This document shows, piece after piece, positions 1-2,981 of a DNA stretch of 64,000 nucleotides (the first letter of the stretch is position 1; the number at the start of each line of letters is the position of its first letter). The notes beneath the pieces were generated by a model that worked only from the letters and a program-made list of their open reading frames with translations, did no database searches and was not told the origin of the DNA. Both the position numbers and the translations under genes were made by a program. This DNA comes from Sulfurovum sp. (GTDB lineage: Bacteria > Campylobacterota > Campylobacteria > Campylobacterales > Sulfurovaceae): contig NZ_WGDD01000002.1 of the NCBI RefSeq assembly GCF_015493435.1, positions 1-64,000 of the forward strand, in the 5' to 3' direction.

Positions 1-376
1 AATAATACAAGTAGTAGGGGTTCATCTTCTCTTGGTCTAATGTAACTTTTAATTGACTTTGAGAGACAACATAGCGTTTATATTTTGAGTTCTTTGGAAT
101 TAAACCAACTTGTCCTATAGTTCCTCGATGAGTAATAACTATATCTAAGGGGAAAGCATTAGAAGCTTTCAGTTCATCAGCTTTTTCTTCTGTTAAGAAA
201 TCGTATTTATCTTCATTGATAAAGTCACCATTAAGGTTTGTGCCTTTAATTATAGGAATACCAGCATTAGTAAAATTTTCAGCTTTAATTCTTGAGCCAA
301 AAGGTCCCATTGCAATAGCATTTTTCTTATCAGATTTTAAATTTTCAATTGAAAGTTCTTTCCACTCAGACCTCAT
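1..376 (-). CDS. hsdS: Type I restriction-modification specificity subunit HsdS (partial, N-terminal)
   Basis: The reading frame is open from an ATG at 376 to the window edge, so only about 125 N-terminal residues are seen. HsdS supplies sequence recognition to the HsdM/HsdR complex. The visible part matches the opening of a target recognition domain: a start like MRSEWKELSIEN, then MGPFGSRIKAENF, GIPIIKGTNL and ITHRGTIGQVGLIP, which are characteristic of type I S subunits. It lies downstream of hsdM in the same orientation, separated by the RhuM-Fic gene. Its start overlaps a relic of an hsdM C-terminus, so translation was probably once coupled to a different hsdM copy. Base composition is clearly more AT-rich than hsdM, as is common for exchanged specificity genes. 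The family call is firm; the target sequence cannot be read from this. Confidence 0.88.
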   Translation of the reverse strand, partial: MRSEWKELSIENLKSDKKNAIAMGPFGSRIKAENFTNAGIPIIKGTNLNGDFINEDKYDFLTEEKADELKASNAFPLDIVITHRGTIGQVGLIPKNSKYKRYVVSQSQLKVTLDQEKMNPYYLYY

Positions 377-416
377 ACCCAAGCCCCGCCAAGTTCTTCT
401 TAATCTCACACATCAT
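366..416 (-). pseudogene. Relic of an hsdM 3' end (last about 16 codons)
   Basis: Between the stop of the RhuM-Fic gene and the hsdS start, one frame reads MMCEIKKNLAGLGYEV and then a stop. The intact hsdM at 1392-2981 ends LEDEIRKNLSALGYEI and stop. The two tails align without gaps and most residues are identical or conservative, while the DNA has diverged. The hsdS ATG lies inside the GYE codons, a usual hsdM-hsdS overlap. The stretch is therefore best read as the leftover end of a former hsdM, not as a functional gene. It implies that the present hsdM plus RhuM-Fic replaced or was inserted into an older hsdM-hsdS junction. Confidence 0.7.
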
Positions 417-417
417 C

Positions 418-1395
418 CTAAACCCCTTCCACTAACATGTTCATAACCAAGCGAATAATGATCTCTTTTTGTTCCGGCATAGAGGTAGCCACAAGCAGGG
501 TTAGTGCTGCCAAGGCGTTATCGTTGATCTTGGCTTCACCGTTGGCTTTATGGAGGATGCCGTTTTTATGCAGAAAGAGTACGAATAGATACGCCCCTAT
601 ACGCTTATTACCGTCGTTGAACGGATGCCCTTTGACTACATAATAAAGTAAATTTGCCGCCTTTTGTTCAACAGATGGCAACAGGTCTTCTCCGCCAAAA
701 GACTGATATATGTTGAGTAGGTTGCCTTTGAACTCTCCGGCTTTTTCCTGACCAAAAAGCACCGTCGCTTCACCTTTGGACATGAGCGTCTCTTTGAGAG
801 CGGCTATTGCTTCTTTCGCTTCATCATACCCCAATGCAAACAGGATATCCTGTGTCTCAGTCACTTCCGGAAGTGTCTGTTCATCGTACCCCTGCAGCAG
901 TGCCCAACTTTTGGCATAATTCCCAATGATCTCTATAAACCCTTTGGCTTCATCCTCCGCCAATGCACGGCTCTCTACTGCCTGTTTGATCGTTTCAATC
1001 GTCCGCTCAAGTTCTGCAAATTTCTCTTTTTGGAGTCGCTCATGATCGAGAGCGTAGCCTTGGAGGAGGTATCTATTGAGTACATCTGTAGCCCATCTCC
1101 TAAAATAGGTCGCTTTTTTTGAATTAACCCTGTATCCTACAGATATAATCATGTCGAGATTGTAAAAGTTTTTCTTTCTTTTTTTACCATCTTTCGCAAC
1201 CTGTTCCAAAATGGAACAAGTTGATTTTTTCTCAAGCTCACCGCTTTTGTAAATATTTCCAATATGTTTTACAATCGCTGGACGATTCACATCAAAGATA
1301 GCGGCAATGTCATTAGCATCTAACCATACTGTCTTATTCTCAAATGATACCTCTAGACTAACATTCCCATCTTCATAAATAATCATTTCACTCAT
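418..1395 (-). CDS. RhuM-like N-terminal domain fused to a Fic/DOC domain
   Basis: A 325-aa protein of two parts. Residues about 1-118 resemble the RhuM (virulence protein RhuM) family, including the hallmark IISVGYRVNSKKATYFRRW near residues 84-102. The C-terminal half ends in a Fic/DOC core with HPFNDGNKRIGAYLF near residues 257-271, the motif that binds ATP phosphates and carries the catalytic His in AMP- or phospho-transferring enzymes. The start overlaps the hsdM stop by 4 nt (ATGA), so the two are translationally coupled. Such genes are known passengers in type I restriction loci, possibly acting as guard or toxin modules, but no target can be named. No separate antitoxin is visible next to it. 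A Fic inhibitory (S/T)xxxE(G/N) helix was not clearly identified. Confidence 0.85.
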   Translation of the reverse strand: MSEMIIYEDGNVSLEVSFENKTVWLDANDIAAIFDVNRPAIVKHIGNIYKSGELEKKSTCSILEQVAKDGKKRKKNFYNLDMIISVGYRVNSKKATYFRRWATDVLNRYLLQGYALDHERLQKEKFAELERTIETIKQAVESRALAEDEAKGFIEIIGNYAKSWALLQGYDEQTLPEVTETQDILFALGYDEAKEAIAALKETLMSKGEATVLFGQEKAGEFKGNLLNIYQSFGGEDLLPSVEQKAANLLYYVVKGHPFNDGNKRIGAYLFVLFLHKNGILHKANGEAKINDNALAALTLLVATSMPEQKEIIIRLVMNMLVEGV

Positions 1396-2981
1396 ATCTC
1401 ATACCCCAAAGCCGATAAATTTTTCCGTATCTCATCTTCAAGCTTACGAGACTCTGTAAATTGTTCATCAAGCATTGTAGTCAGTATCGCCATCTTCTCA
1501 GAAAACGGCACACCATCATCCTCTTCTTCCGCCACACCCACATATCGACCTGGAGTCAGAATGTACTCTTGTTTTGCTATCTCCTCCGTCGTCGCACTAT
1601 AAAACGCCCCAAGCTCATTGACATCTTCACCTCTCCTAAATGCATGGAAAGTATCGGCAATGCCTTTTGTGTCGGCATCATCAAAGGCTTTCTGCTTGCG
1701 GTCGATCATGTGCCCCACTTCTCTTGCATCGATGAACAGCGTCTTACCTTTTTGAGCCTTCTTCTTGTTAAGTATCCAAATACAGGCAGGTATCTGTGTG
1801 TTGGCAAAGAGCTGTGACGGCAGAGCGACAATGGCTTCGACCAAGTCCGCTTTGACGATGGCTTCCCGTATCTCCCTCTCTCCGCCTGACGTGGTACTGA
1901 GACTTCCATTGGCAAGCACAAGACCCACAACACCGTTGGGGCTGGTGTGGTAGAGCATGTGCTGCATCCATGCATAGTTCCCGTTACCCTTTGGCGGTGT
2001 ACCATACTTCCACCGTGCGTCACCCTCCAAAGAACCATCCCACCACTCGTCCTGATTGAAGGGAGGGTTGGCAAGCACATAGTCGGCTTTCAGGTCTGGG
2101 TGCTGGTCTTTGGTGAAGGTATCGCCGGGCTCTTTGCCGAAGTCGAAGTCAATGCCACGGATCGCCATATTCATCGCCGCCAGTCTCCATGTGGTCGGGT
2201 TGGACTCCTGACCGTAAACGGAGATGTCTTTGATCTTCCCGCTGTGCTCCTCTATGAACTTCTCCGAAGAGATGAAAAACCCGCCCGAACCCATAGCGGG
2301 GTCATAGACTCTGCCTTTGAACGGCTCTACCATCTCAACAATGAGATTGACAATGGACTTTGGCGTATAGAACTGCCCGCCTTTCTTGCCCTCGGCTGCT
2401 GCGAACTGTCCCAGAAAGTATTCGTACACATGACCAAGTATATCTTTGGCTTTGAGTGTTTCATGAGCAAAAGGGATCGTTGCTATGAGGTCTAGCAGAT
2501 CAGCAAGCTTGTTCTGCTCTATCTGTAGCTGTGCATAGTTCTTGTTGAGGATGCGTTTGAGCTTGGGGTTCTCTTTTTCTATCAGTTCCATCGTGTCATC
2601 GAGCATCTTCCCCGCACCTTTGAACTCACCACCAAGAGGAAGCGCAGAACCAAGTGAAAGACGGATGTTGTCCTGAAGGTACTGCCAACGAGCCGCAGCA
2701 GGTACCCAAAAGACATTCTTCTCCGTGTAGTAGTCCCTGTTCTCCAGCTCCTCTTCTATGAAATCATCAGAGTCTTCACCCAGATAGTAGTCATTCTCAG
2801 GGTTTCTAAACGCAGCCATCAACTCCTGCCGACGTGTTTCAAAGCTGTCGGAGACATACTTCAAAAAGACCATCCCCAGCACCACATGCTTATAGACTGC
2901 GGCATCAAGTGAAGGCAGCAGTTTGTTGGCTGATGTCCACAGCTTCTTTTCCAAGTCTTGTAAAAACTTTTGTTCTGTCAT
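1392..2981 (-). CDS. hsdM: Type I restriction-modification methyltransferase subunit HsdM
   Basis: A 529-aa N6-adenine methyltransferase subunit of a type I system. It combines with HsdS to methylate the target and with HsdR to cut unmodified DNA. The N-terminal HsdM helical domain (residues about 8-150) precedes GGQFYTP (201-207), the AdoMet-binding DPAMGSGGF (226-234) and the catalytic NPPF (305-308). Length is normal for the family. A purine-rich ribosome site (AAGGGACGAGA) precedes the ATG. The stop overlaps the start of the RhuM-Fic gene. hsdR is not in the window and may lie beyond the left edge. All motifs look intact, so the subunit is probably active. Confidence 0.96.
   Translation of the reverse strand: MTEQKFLQDLEKKLWTSANKLLPSLDAAVYKHVVLGMVFLKYVSDSFETRRQELMAAFRNPENDYYLGEDSDDFIEEELENRDYYTEKNVFWVPAAARWQYLQDNIRLSLGSALPLGGEFKGAGKMLDDTMELIEKENPKLKRILNKNYAQLQIEQNKLADLLDLIATIPFAHETLKAKDILGHVYEYFLGQFAAAEGKKGGQFYTPKSIVNLIVEMVEPFKGRVYDPAMGSGGFFISSEKFIEEHSGKIKDISVYGQESNPTTWRLAAMNMAIRGIDFDFGKEPGDTFTKDQHPDLKADYVLANPPFNQDEWWDGSLEGDARWKYGTPPKGNGNYAWMQHMLYHTSPNGVVGLVLANGSLSTTSGGEREIREAIVKADLVEAIVALPSQLFANTQIPACIWILNKKKAQKGKTLFIDAREVGHMIDRKQKAFDDADTKGIADTFHAFRRGEDVNELGAFYSATTEEIAKQEYILTPGRYVGVAEEEDDGVPFSEKMAILTTMLDEQFTESRKLEDEIRKNLSALGYEI

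Follow-up and report, generated by a model that had tools for sequence, protein, structure and literature searches.

A RhuM-Fic passenger gene between hsdM and hsdS of a type I restriction operon and the probable displaced hsdM 3' end behind it

A RhuM-Fic passenger gene is likely to have entered the hsdM-hsdS junction of a type I restriction-modification locus with an hsdM 3' end of its own and, as judged from sequence comparisons, to have displaced the resident 3' end to the hsdS side. The locus lies in the window, the whole 64,000-nt stretch of DNA that was analysed, from a Sulfurovum-like genome, where hsdM, the RhuM-Fic gene, a short frame and hsdS are all found on the minus strand at the contig end. 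The hsdM gene (1392..2981) encodes a type I DNA methylase subunit of 529 aa with HsdM_N (E 2.4e-20) and N6_Mtase (E 2.7e-110) Pfam domains, and overlaps the passenger gene (418..1395) by 4 nt, ATGA. The latter encodes a protein of 325 aa that includes the Fic motif HPFNDGNKR and matches the Pfam families Virulence_RhuM, Bro-N and Fic, with scores above the cut-offs (85 bits vs 33.7 for RhuM and 40.5 vs 24 for Fic). Directly behind the fic stop is a frame of 16 codons (366..416, ATGATG..TGA, MMCEIKKNLAGLGYEV), the last 13 of which are a copy of an hsdM 3' end. The hsdS ATG (376-374) lies inside this copy; hsdS and the 16-codon frame overlap by 11 nt, with the TGA of the frame 8 nt past the ATG. 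The hsdS gene (2..376), in the same operon as hsdM, is represented by a 5' part of 125 codons that includes a Methylase_S domain (Pfam), and is cut because the contig (G000:C2) starts at base 1 of the window. Neither the hsdR of the operon nor the remainder of hsdS, after codon 125, is present in the draft assembly. The insert consists of the RhuM-Fic gene only, with no integrase gene inside, and inspection by eye recognised no integrase or transposase beside the locus. The RhuM/BRO-N N-terminal quarter of the passenger has a GC content of 0.33 vs 0.43-0.49 in the rest, as if the halves were of different origin.

The assembly contains a single HSDR_N domain, which lies at the C14 contig end and is part of a second type I system that is itself cut by contig ends, with hsdS and hsdM on C51 (L258:6304-8399, G000:C51 end) and hsdR on C14 (L259:5374-8253, G000:C14 end). 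The HsdM of this system has the tail VKKQMQSYLEELGL, and its hsdR is 85% identical (aa) to the best relative, in G057. Joining C14 and C51 to the window locus was rejected, as both belong to the second system. Relatives carry RhuM-Fic also behind the hsdM of this second system (L003).

The orthologues of the window HsdM in related genomes are 83-93% identical to it, plus one at 61%, and two types of hsdM tail were distinguished. A direct-junction (D-type) tail, ..GGGGCTTGGGTATG.., is found where hsdM runs directly into hsdS, i.e. in L144, L008, L145, L146, L147 and L148 (the junctions also listed as the pairs L113/L144, L115/L008, L118/L145, L119/L146, L120/L147 and L125/L148), with the hsdS ATG inside the tail and an hsdM-hsdS overlap of 11 nt. 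A passenger-type (P-type) tail, ..TTGGGGTATGAGATATGA, is found where a passenger follows hsdM, i.e. in the window, L002 and L030 (fic), L142 (ORF6N) and L143 (AlbA_2), and the next gene then mostly starts at ATGA. The 3' end of the present window hsdM, comprising 14 codons and the stop (1392..1436, DEIRKNLSALGYEI), clusters with the tails of L002, L030, L142 and L143, all of which precede passenger genes, with a support of 100/100. The present HsdM ends in EIRKNLSALGYEI, and the putative relic, comprising 13 codons plus stop (366..407, 42 nt), reads EIKKNLAGLGYEV. Per 45 nt, the relic shows 5-10 mismatches to the six D-type tails, 15 to its own hsdM tail and 15-20 to the P-type tails. A tree built on the last 14 codons separated the five P-type tails from the D-type tails and three relics with a support of 100/100, and grouping of the window relic with its own hsdM tail was rejected (p 2e-4). 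The split persisted (88/91 to 92/93) without the last four codons, which are constrained by the overlap.

At the level of sequence, these comparisons confirmed the relic as the tail of a passenger-free (D-type) HsdM. The earlier note had taken it for a diverged copy of the current HsdM end, which does not agree with the mismatch counts or with the rejected grouping; the check that it proposed, whether the relic is nearer to another HsdM lineage, was borne out, the relic being closer to the direct-junction relatives L144, L008 and L145 than to the present HsdM. The counter-case named there, passenger-free loci in which this short peptide is encoded by a gene of its own, was looked for and not found; such loci encode it only as the C-terminal end of full-length HsdM. 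This bears also on the idea, which appears improbable, that the 16-codon frame would be no remnant but a genuine leader gene of hsdS. The frame does have a good upstream SD-like site (GGAAGGGG, duplex -7.4 kcal/mol), an ATGATG just after fic and an end that overlaps hsdS, and it is open in both the window and L002 and fused to the passenger frame in L142. However, the DNA of the frame is hsdM-tail DNA, its peptide has no existence apart from HsdM in passenger-free loci, and a role as leader can be secondary.

To place the match against background, 117 distinct hsdM loci were collected by searching genome contigs for fic and by searching viral contigs and the whole genomes of relatives, a sample that is enriched for fic loci through the way of drawing. 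Every stop-ended peptide up to 4.5 kb downstream of hsdM was compared (BLOSUM62) with 114 hsdM tails, with the reverse strand as the control. A displaced-tail match with a score of at least 58 was found in 6 of the 117 loci, namely L073 (97), L070 (89), the window (64), L002 (62), L224 (61) and L142 (58), where window/L002 and L070/L073 are non-independent pairs. The best score on the reverse strand of the 117 loci was 45, and none reached the relic scores, which bears out the original reading of the short frame before hsdS as an hsdM 3' end. A Methylase_S protein is encoded next to hsdM in 59 of the 113 loci with a complete next gene, and in all six relic loci a passenger is next. The window is the contig end of a draft genome, which leaves some room for a chance similarity or an assembly artefact, but given the control, the identical joint in the independent metagenome-assembled genome (MAG) L002 and the like joints in four more loci, such an explanation is close to negligible. 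In particular, an assembly error at the relic-hsdS joint is unlikely because L002 has the same joint. Two further candidates were discarded: a seventh forward match in L158 (score 56) was the C-terminus of an hsdS-like protein matching an odd 'tail' in the set, and that in L156 (score 43) lay inside a small ORF that runs on past the match and has no tail-like end.

The putative displaced-tail footprint recurs in several unrelated operons. In L142, an ORF6N gene follows hsdM, and a D-type tail (EIQKNLAGVGYEV) is fused in frame to the ORF6N C-terminus directly before hsdS. The gene order in L073 (Mariprofundus) is hsdM, fic, a tail copy of ~25 codons, ORF6N and hsdS, and that in L070 (Mariprofundaceae) is hsdM, fic, ORF6N, a tail copy with an inserted stretch and hsdS. 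In L224, a GC-rich viral contig, hsdM is followed by RhuM, a 13-codon tail copy that holds the ATG of a second passenger, and then hsdS.

Several observations were made on related loci. In L073 (6990-7030), a palindrome-like stretch, CCCCTAAATCCCCTGAAGGGGACTTT, precedes the tail copy at the joint behind fic. In L154 and L157, frames of 72-76 aa in the 200 nt after hsdM, between hsdM and hsdS, resemble RhuM-Fic pieces and may be internally deleted passengers with both joints kept. In L008 (1356-3950), a RhuM-Fic gene (72% identical) lies directly upstream of an hsdM orthologue (89%) that is joined directly to hsdS, i.e. on the other side of hsdM. The RhuM-Fic gene of L030 (6001-6955) is broken, its reading frame breaking off after 269 aa, and the 5 kb that follow showed no hsdS-like ORF, as might be expected of a decaying type I locus.

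The structure in the window is a direct repeat flanking the passenger, and such a repeat could also arise in situ if insertion of the passenger copied the hsdM 3' end, in the manner of a target-site duplication, and the upstream copy then diverged under the need for an ATGA passenger start. In Mariprofundaceae, the two tail copies still share about 92% identity over 60-75 nt, as in a fresh duplication, and an old duplication in a common ancestor with later exchange among loci would give a pattern similar to that observed. Nevertheless, the two copies in the window belong to different clades, which are shared across loci with differing hsdM bodies and passengers, and this division does not depend on the overlap-constrained codons (88/91, 92/93). 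In situ duplication is hence regarded as rather unlikely, and entry of the passenger with an hsdM 3' end from elsewhere is preferred.

The extent of the incoming hsdM piece was judged from trees of three parts of the gene. For codons 6-420, the window was sister to the passenger-free L144 (100/98), and a single clade of the passenger loci was rejected (p 4e-5). From codon 440 to codon -14, the window still grouped with L144 (91/92) and a clade of the P-type loci was rejected (p 0.005), whereas for the last 55 codons the latter clade was recovered (95/95) and grouping of the window with L144 was rejected (p 0.02). The foreign piece of hsdM therefore has a minimum length of 14 codons and a maximum of about 50, counted from the 3' end; because the tail is short (42 nt), the left breakpoint could not be placed within codons 480-515 (p 0.16-0.26). 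Given a native hsdM body with a P-type end, it was therefore the RhuM-Fic gene and a short hsdM 3' end that came in, and not a whole hsdM. No donor locus closely matching the P-type tail of the window was found. A complete hsdM-fic pair that replaced all of the old hsdM except the last 13 codons would also account for a present tail and a relic from different lineages, but it is highly improbable in view of the position of the hsdM body beside L144, with 87-94% DNA identity over codons 1-420, and of the failure of the passenger loci to form a clade in that body. Of the splice into an older hsdM-hsdS junction that the earlier note proposed, the part that an insertion left the old tail behind is supported, but entry of the whole present hsdM is not. 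The higher AT content of hsdS, which had been counted with the splice, is indeed seen as a step in GC content (0.32 vs 0.49 in hsdM); however, the same step is found in direct-junction relatives (0.25-0.41 vs 0.39-0.57) and marks no splice, because it is the rule in the lineage, being present in every relative examined, with or without a passenger.

Comparison with L002 indicates that fic and the relic behave as one unit. The passengers of the window and L002 share 94% aa identity, and the DNA identity between the two loci is 0.60-0.91 in bins of hsdM and 0.87-0.97 over the stretch that begins with fic and ends with the relic, and disappears abruptly in hsdS, which is unrelated. L002 therefore carries the same fic and relic insertion with a different hsdS. 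The L002 relic differs from that of the window at two positions, at both of which it agrees with L148, and the best relative of the L002 hsdS is the hsdS of L148 (41% aa). This agreement, which rests on two bases, fits a swap of hsdS through the relic.

Under the preferred reading, the RhuM-Fic passenger would have brought an hsdM 3' end of its own, 14 to about 50 codons long, into the hsdM-hsdS junction; this end would complete the reading frame of the resident hsdM, and the last 13 codons of the resident (407-366) would have been pushed to the far side, against hsdS. The route was probably homologous recombination of DNA from a passenger-bearing type I locus, this being the simplest route between type I loci; no integrase is present here. 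The left crossover would lie in the hsdM 3' region and the right crossover in the tail before hsdS; the latter would have been illegitimate in the founding event and homologous afterwards, because the relic of a donor and the tail of a recipient match. A bolder proposal is that RhuM, RhuM-Fic and ORF6N genes of type I loci are single-gene mobile cassettes that repeatedly target the last hsdM codons, each with an attachment-site-like replacement tail, and move by a dedicated route, with an integrase acting in trans or through the RhuM/ORF6N/BRO-N protein's own activity, and not by ordinary homologous recombination; this seems unlikely.

Retention of the relic may be explained by translation. 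The relic includes GGCGGGG (384..390), an SD-like site of hsdS (anti-SD duplex -5.5 kcal/mol) with like sites in L144, L008, L002 and L142, and may have been kept because it holds this site and the hsdS start codon. It may also have been kept because the little frame would pass ribosomes on from fic to hsdS, a role that hsdM had earlier: having left fic, a ribosome could reinitiate immediately, translate the relic and finish at the start of hsdS. Such a hand-over would explain why the frame is open and why the inserts in the window and L142 end about 30 nt short of the hsdS ATG. In addition, the relic would leave a homology block through which hsdS alleles could still be exchanged.

Toxin-like and defence-like passengers are common inside type I restriction operons, and their entry without breaking the methylase-specificity pair is seldom visible. 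As the passenger here would bring a methylase end and leave the old end before hsdS, neither neighbour is broken. This footprint, a repeat of the hsdM tail behind a passenger, can be searched for in any genome and orients insertions, and it predicts that passengers lacking a mobility gene of their own can spread and stack (as in L073 and L224), with hsdS exchange still possible.

The passenger is of the same kind as the RhuM and RhuM-DOC genes that occur in restriction-modification loci (PMC3710099). Other intervening genes in type I loci are the rlo and mlo genes of C. jejuni, mlo lying between hsdS and hsdM (Miller et al. 2005, as cited in PMC5183652), and likewise prrC in EcoPrrI. The passages of the rlo/mlo, PrrC and RhuM-DOC accounts that were covered describe no target-gene remnant or passenger-linked hsdM tail, and no description of tail relics was found in the literature on RhuM with hsdM or on genes between hsdM and hsdS, in a search that most subscription papers lay outside. 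In EcoKI, hsdM and hsdS overlap and are translationally coupled, with hsdS starting inside the hsdM 3' end (PMC3510504); the overlap is 1 nt there vs 11 nt in the direct-junction loci, and coupling in the window would, unlike in EcoKI, run through fic, relic and hsdS. As in H. pylori, where hsdS target domains move by recombination (PMC3077401), specificity could be changed by recombination within the type I locus, but here the block of homology is located at the end of hsdM, and on its far side hsdS differs as a whole (window vs L002). The closest parallel in structure is with genomic islands integrated at gene 3' ends, such as the integrase-driven McRImecD-1 in rpsI (PMC5341023), where the target gene receives a new 3' end from the insert. 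The window insert likewise completes its target gene and would have displaced the original 3' end as a repeat; unlike McRImecD-1, it consists of a single passenger gene (~1 kb) with no integrase gene, and its target is part of an operon in which the next gene starts within the displaced end. A displaced gene end is thus known for integrase islands, and is found here, recurrently, for single-gene passengers of type I operons.
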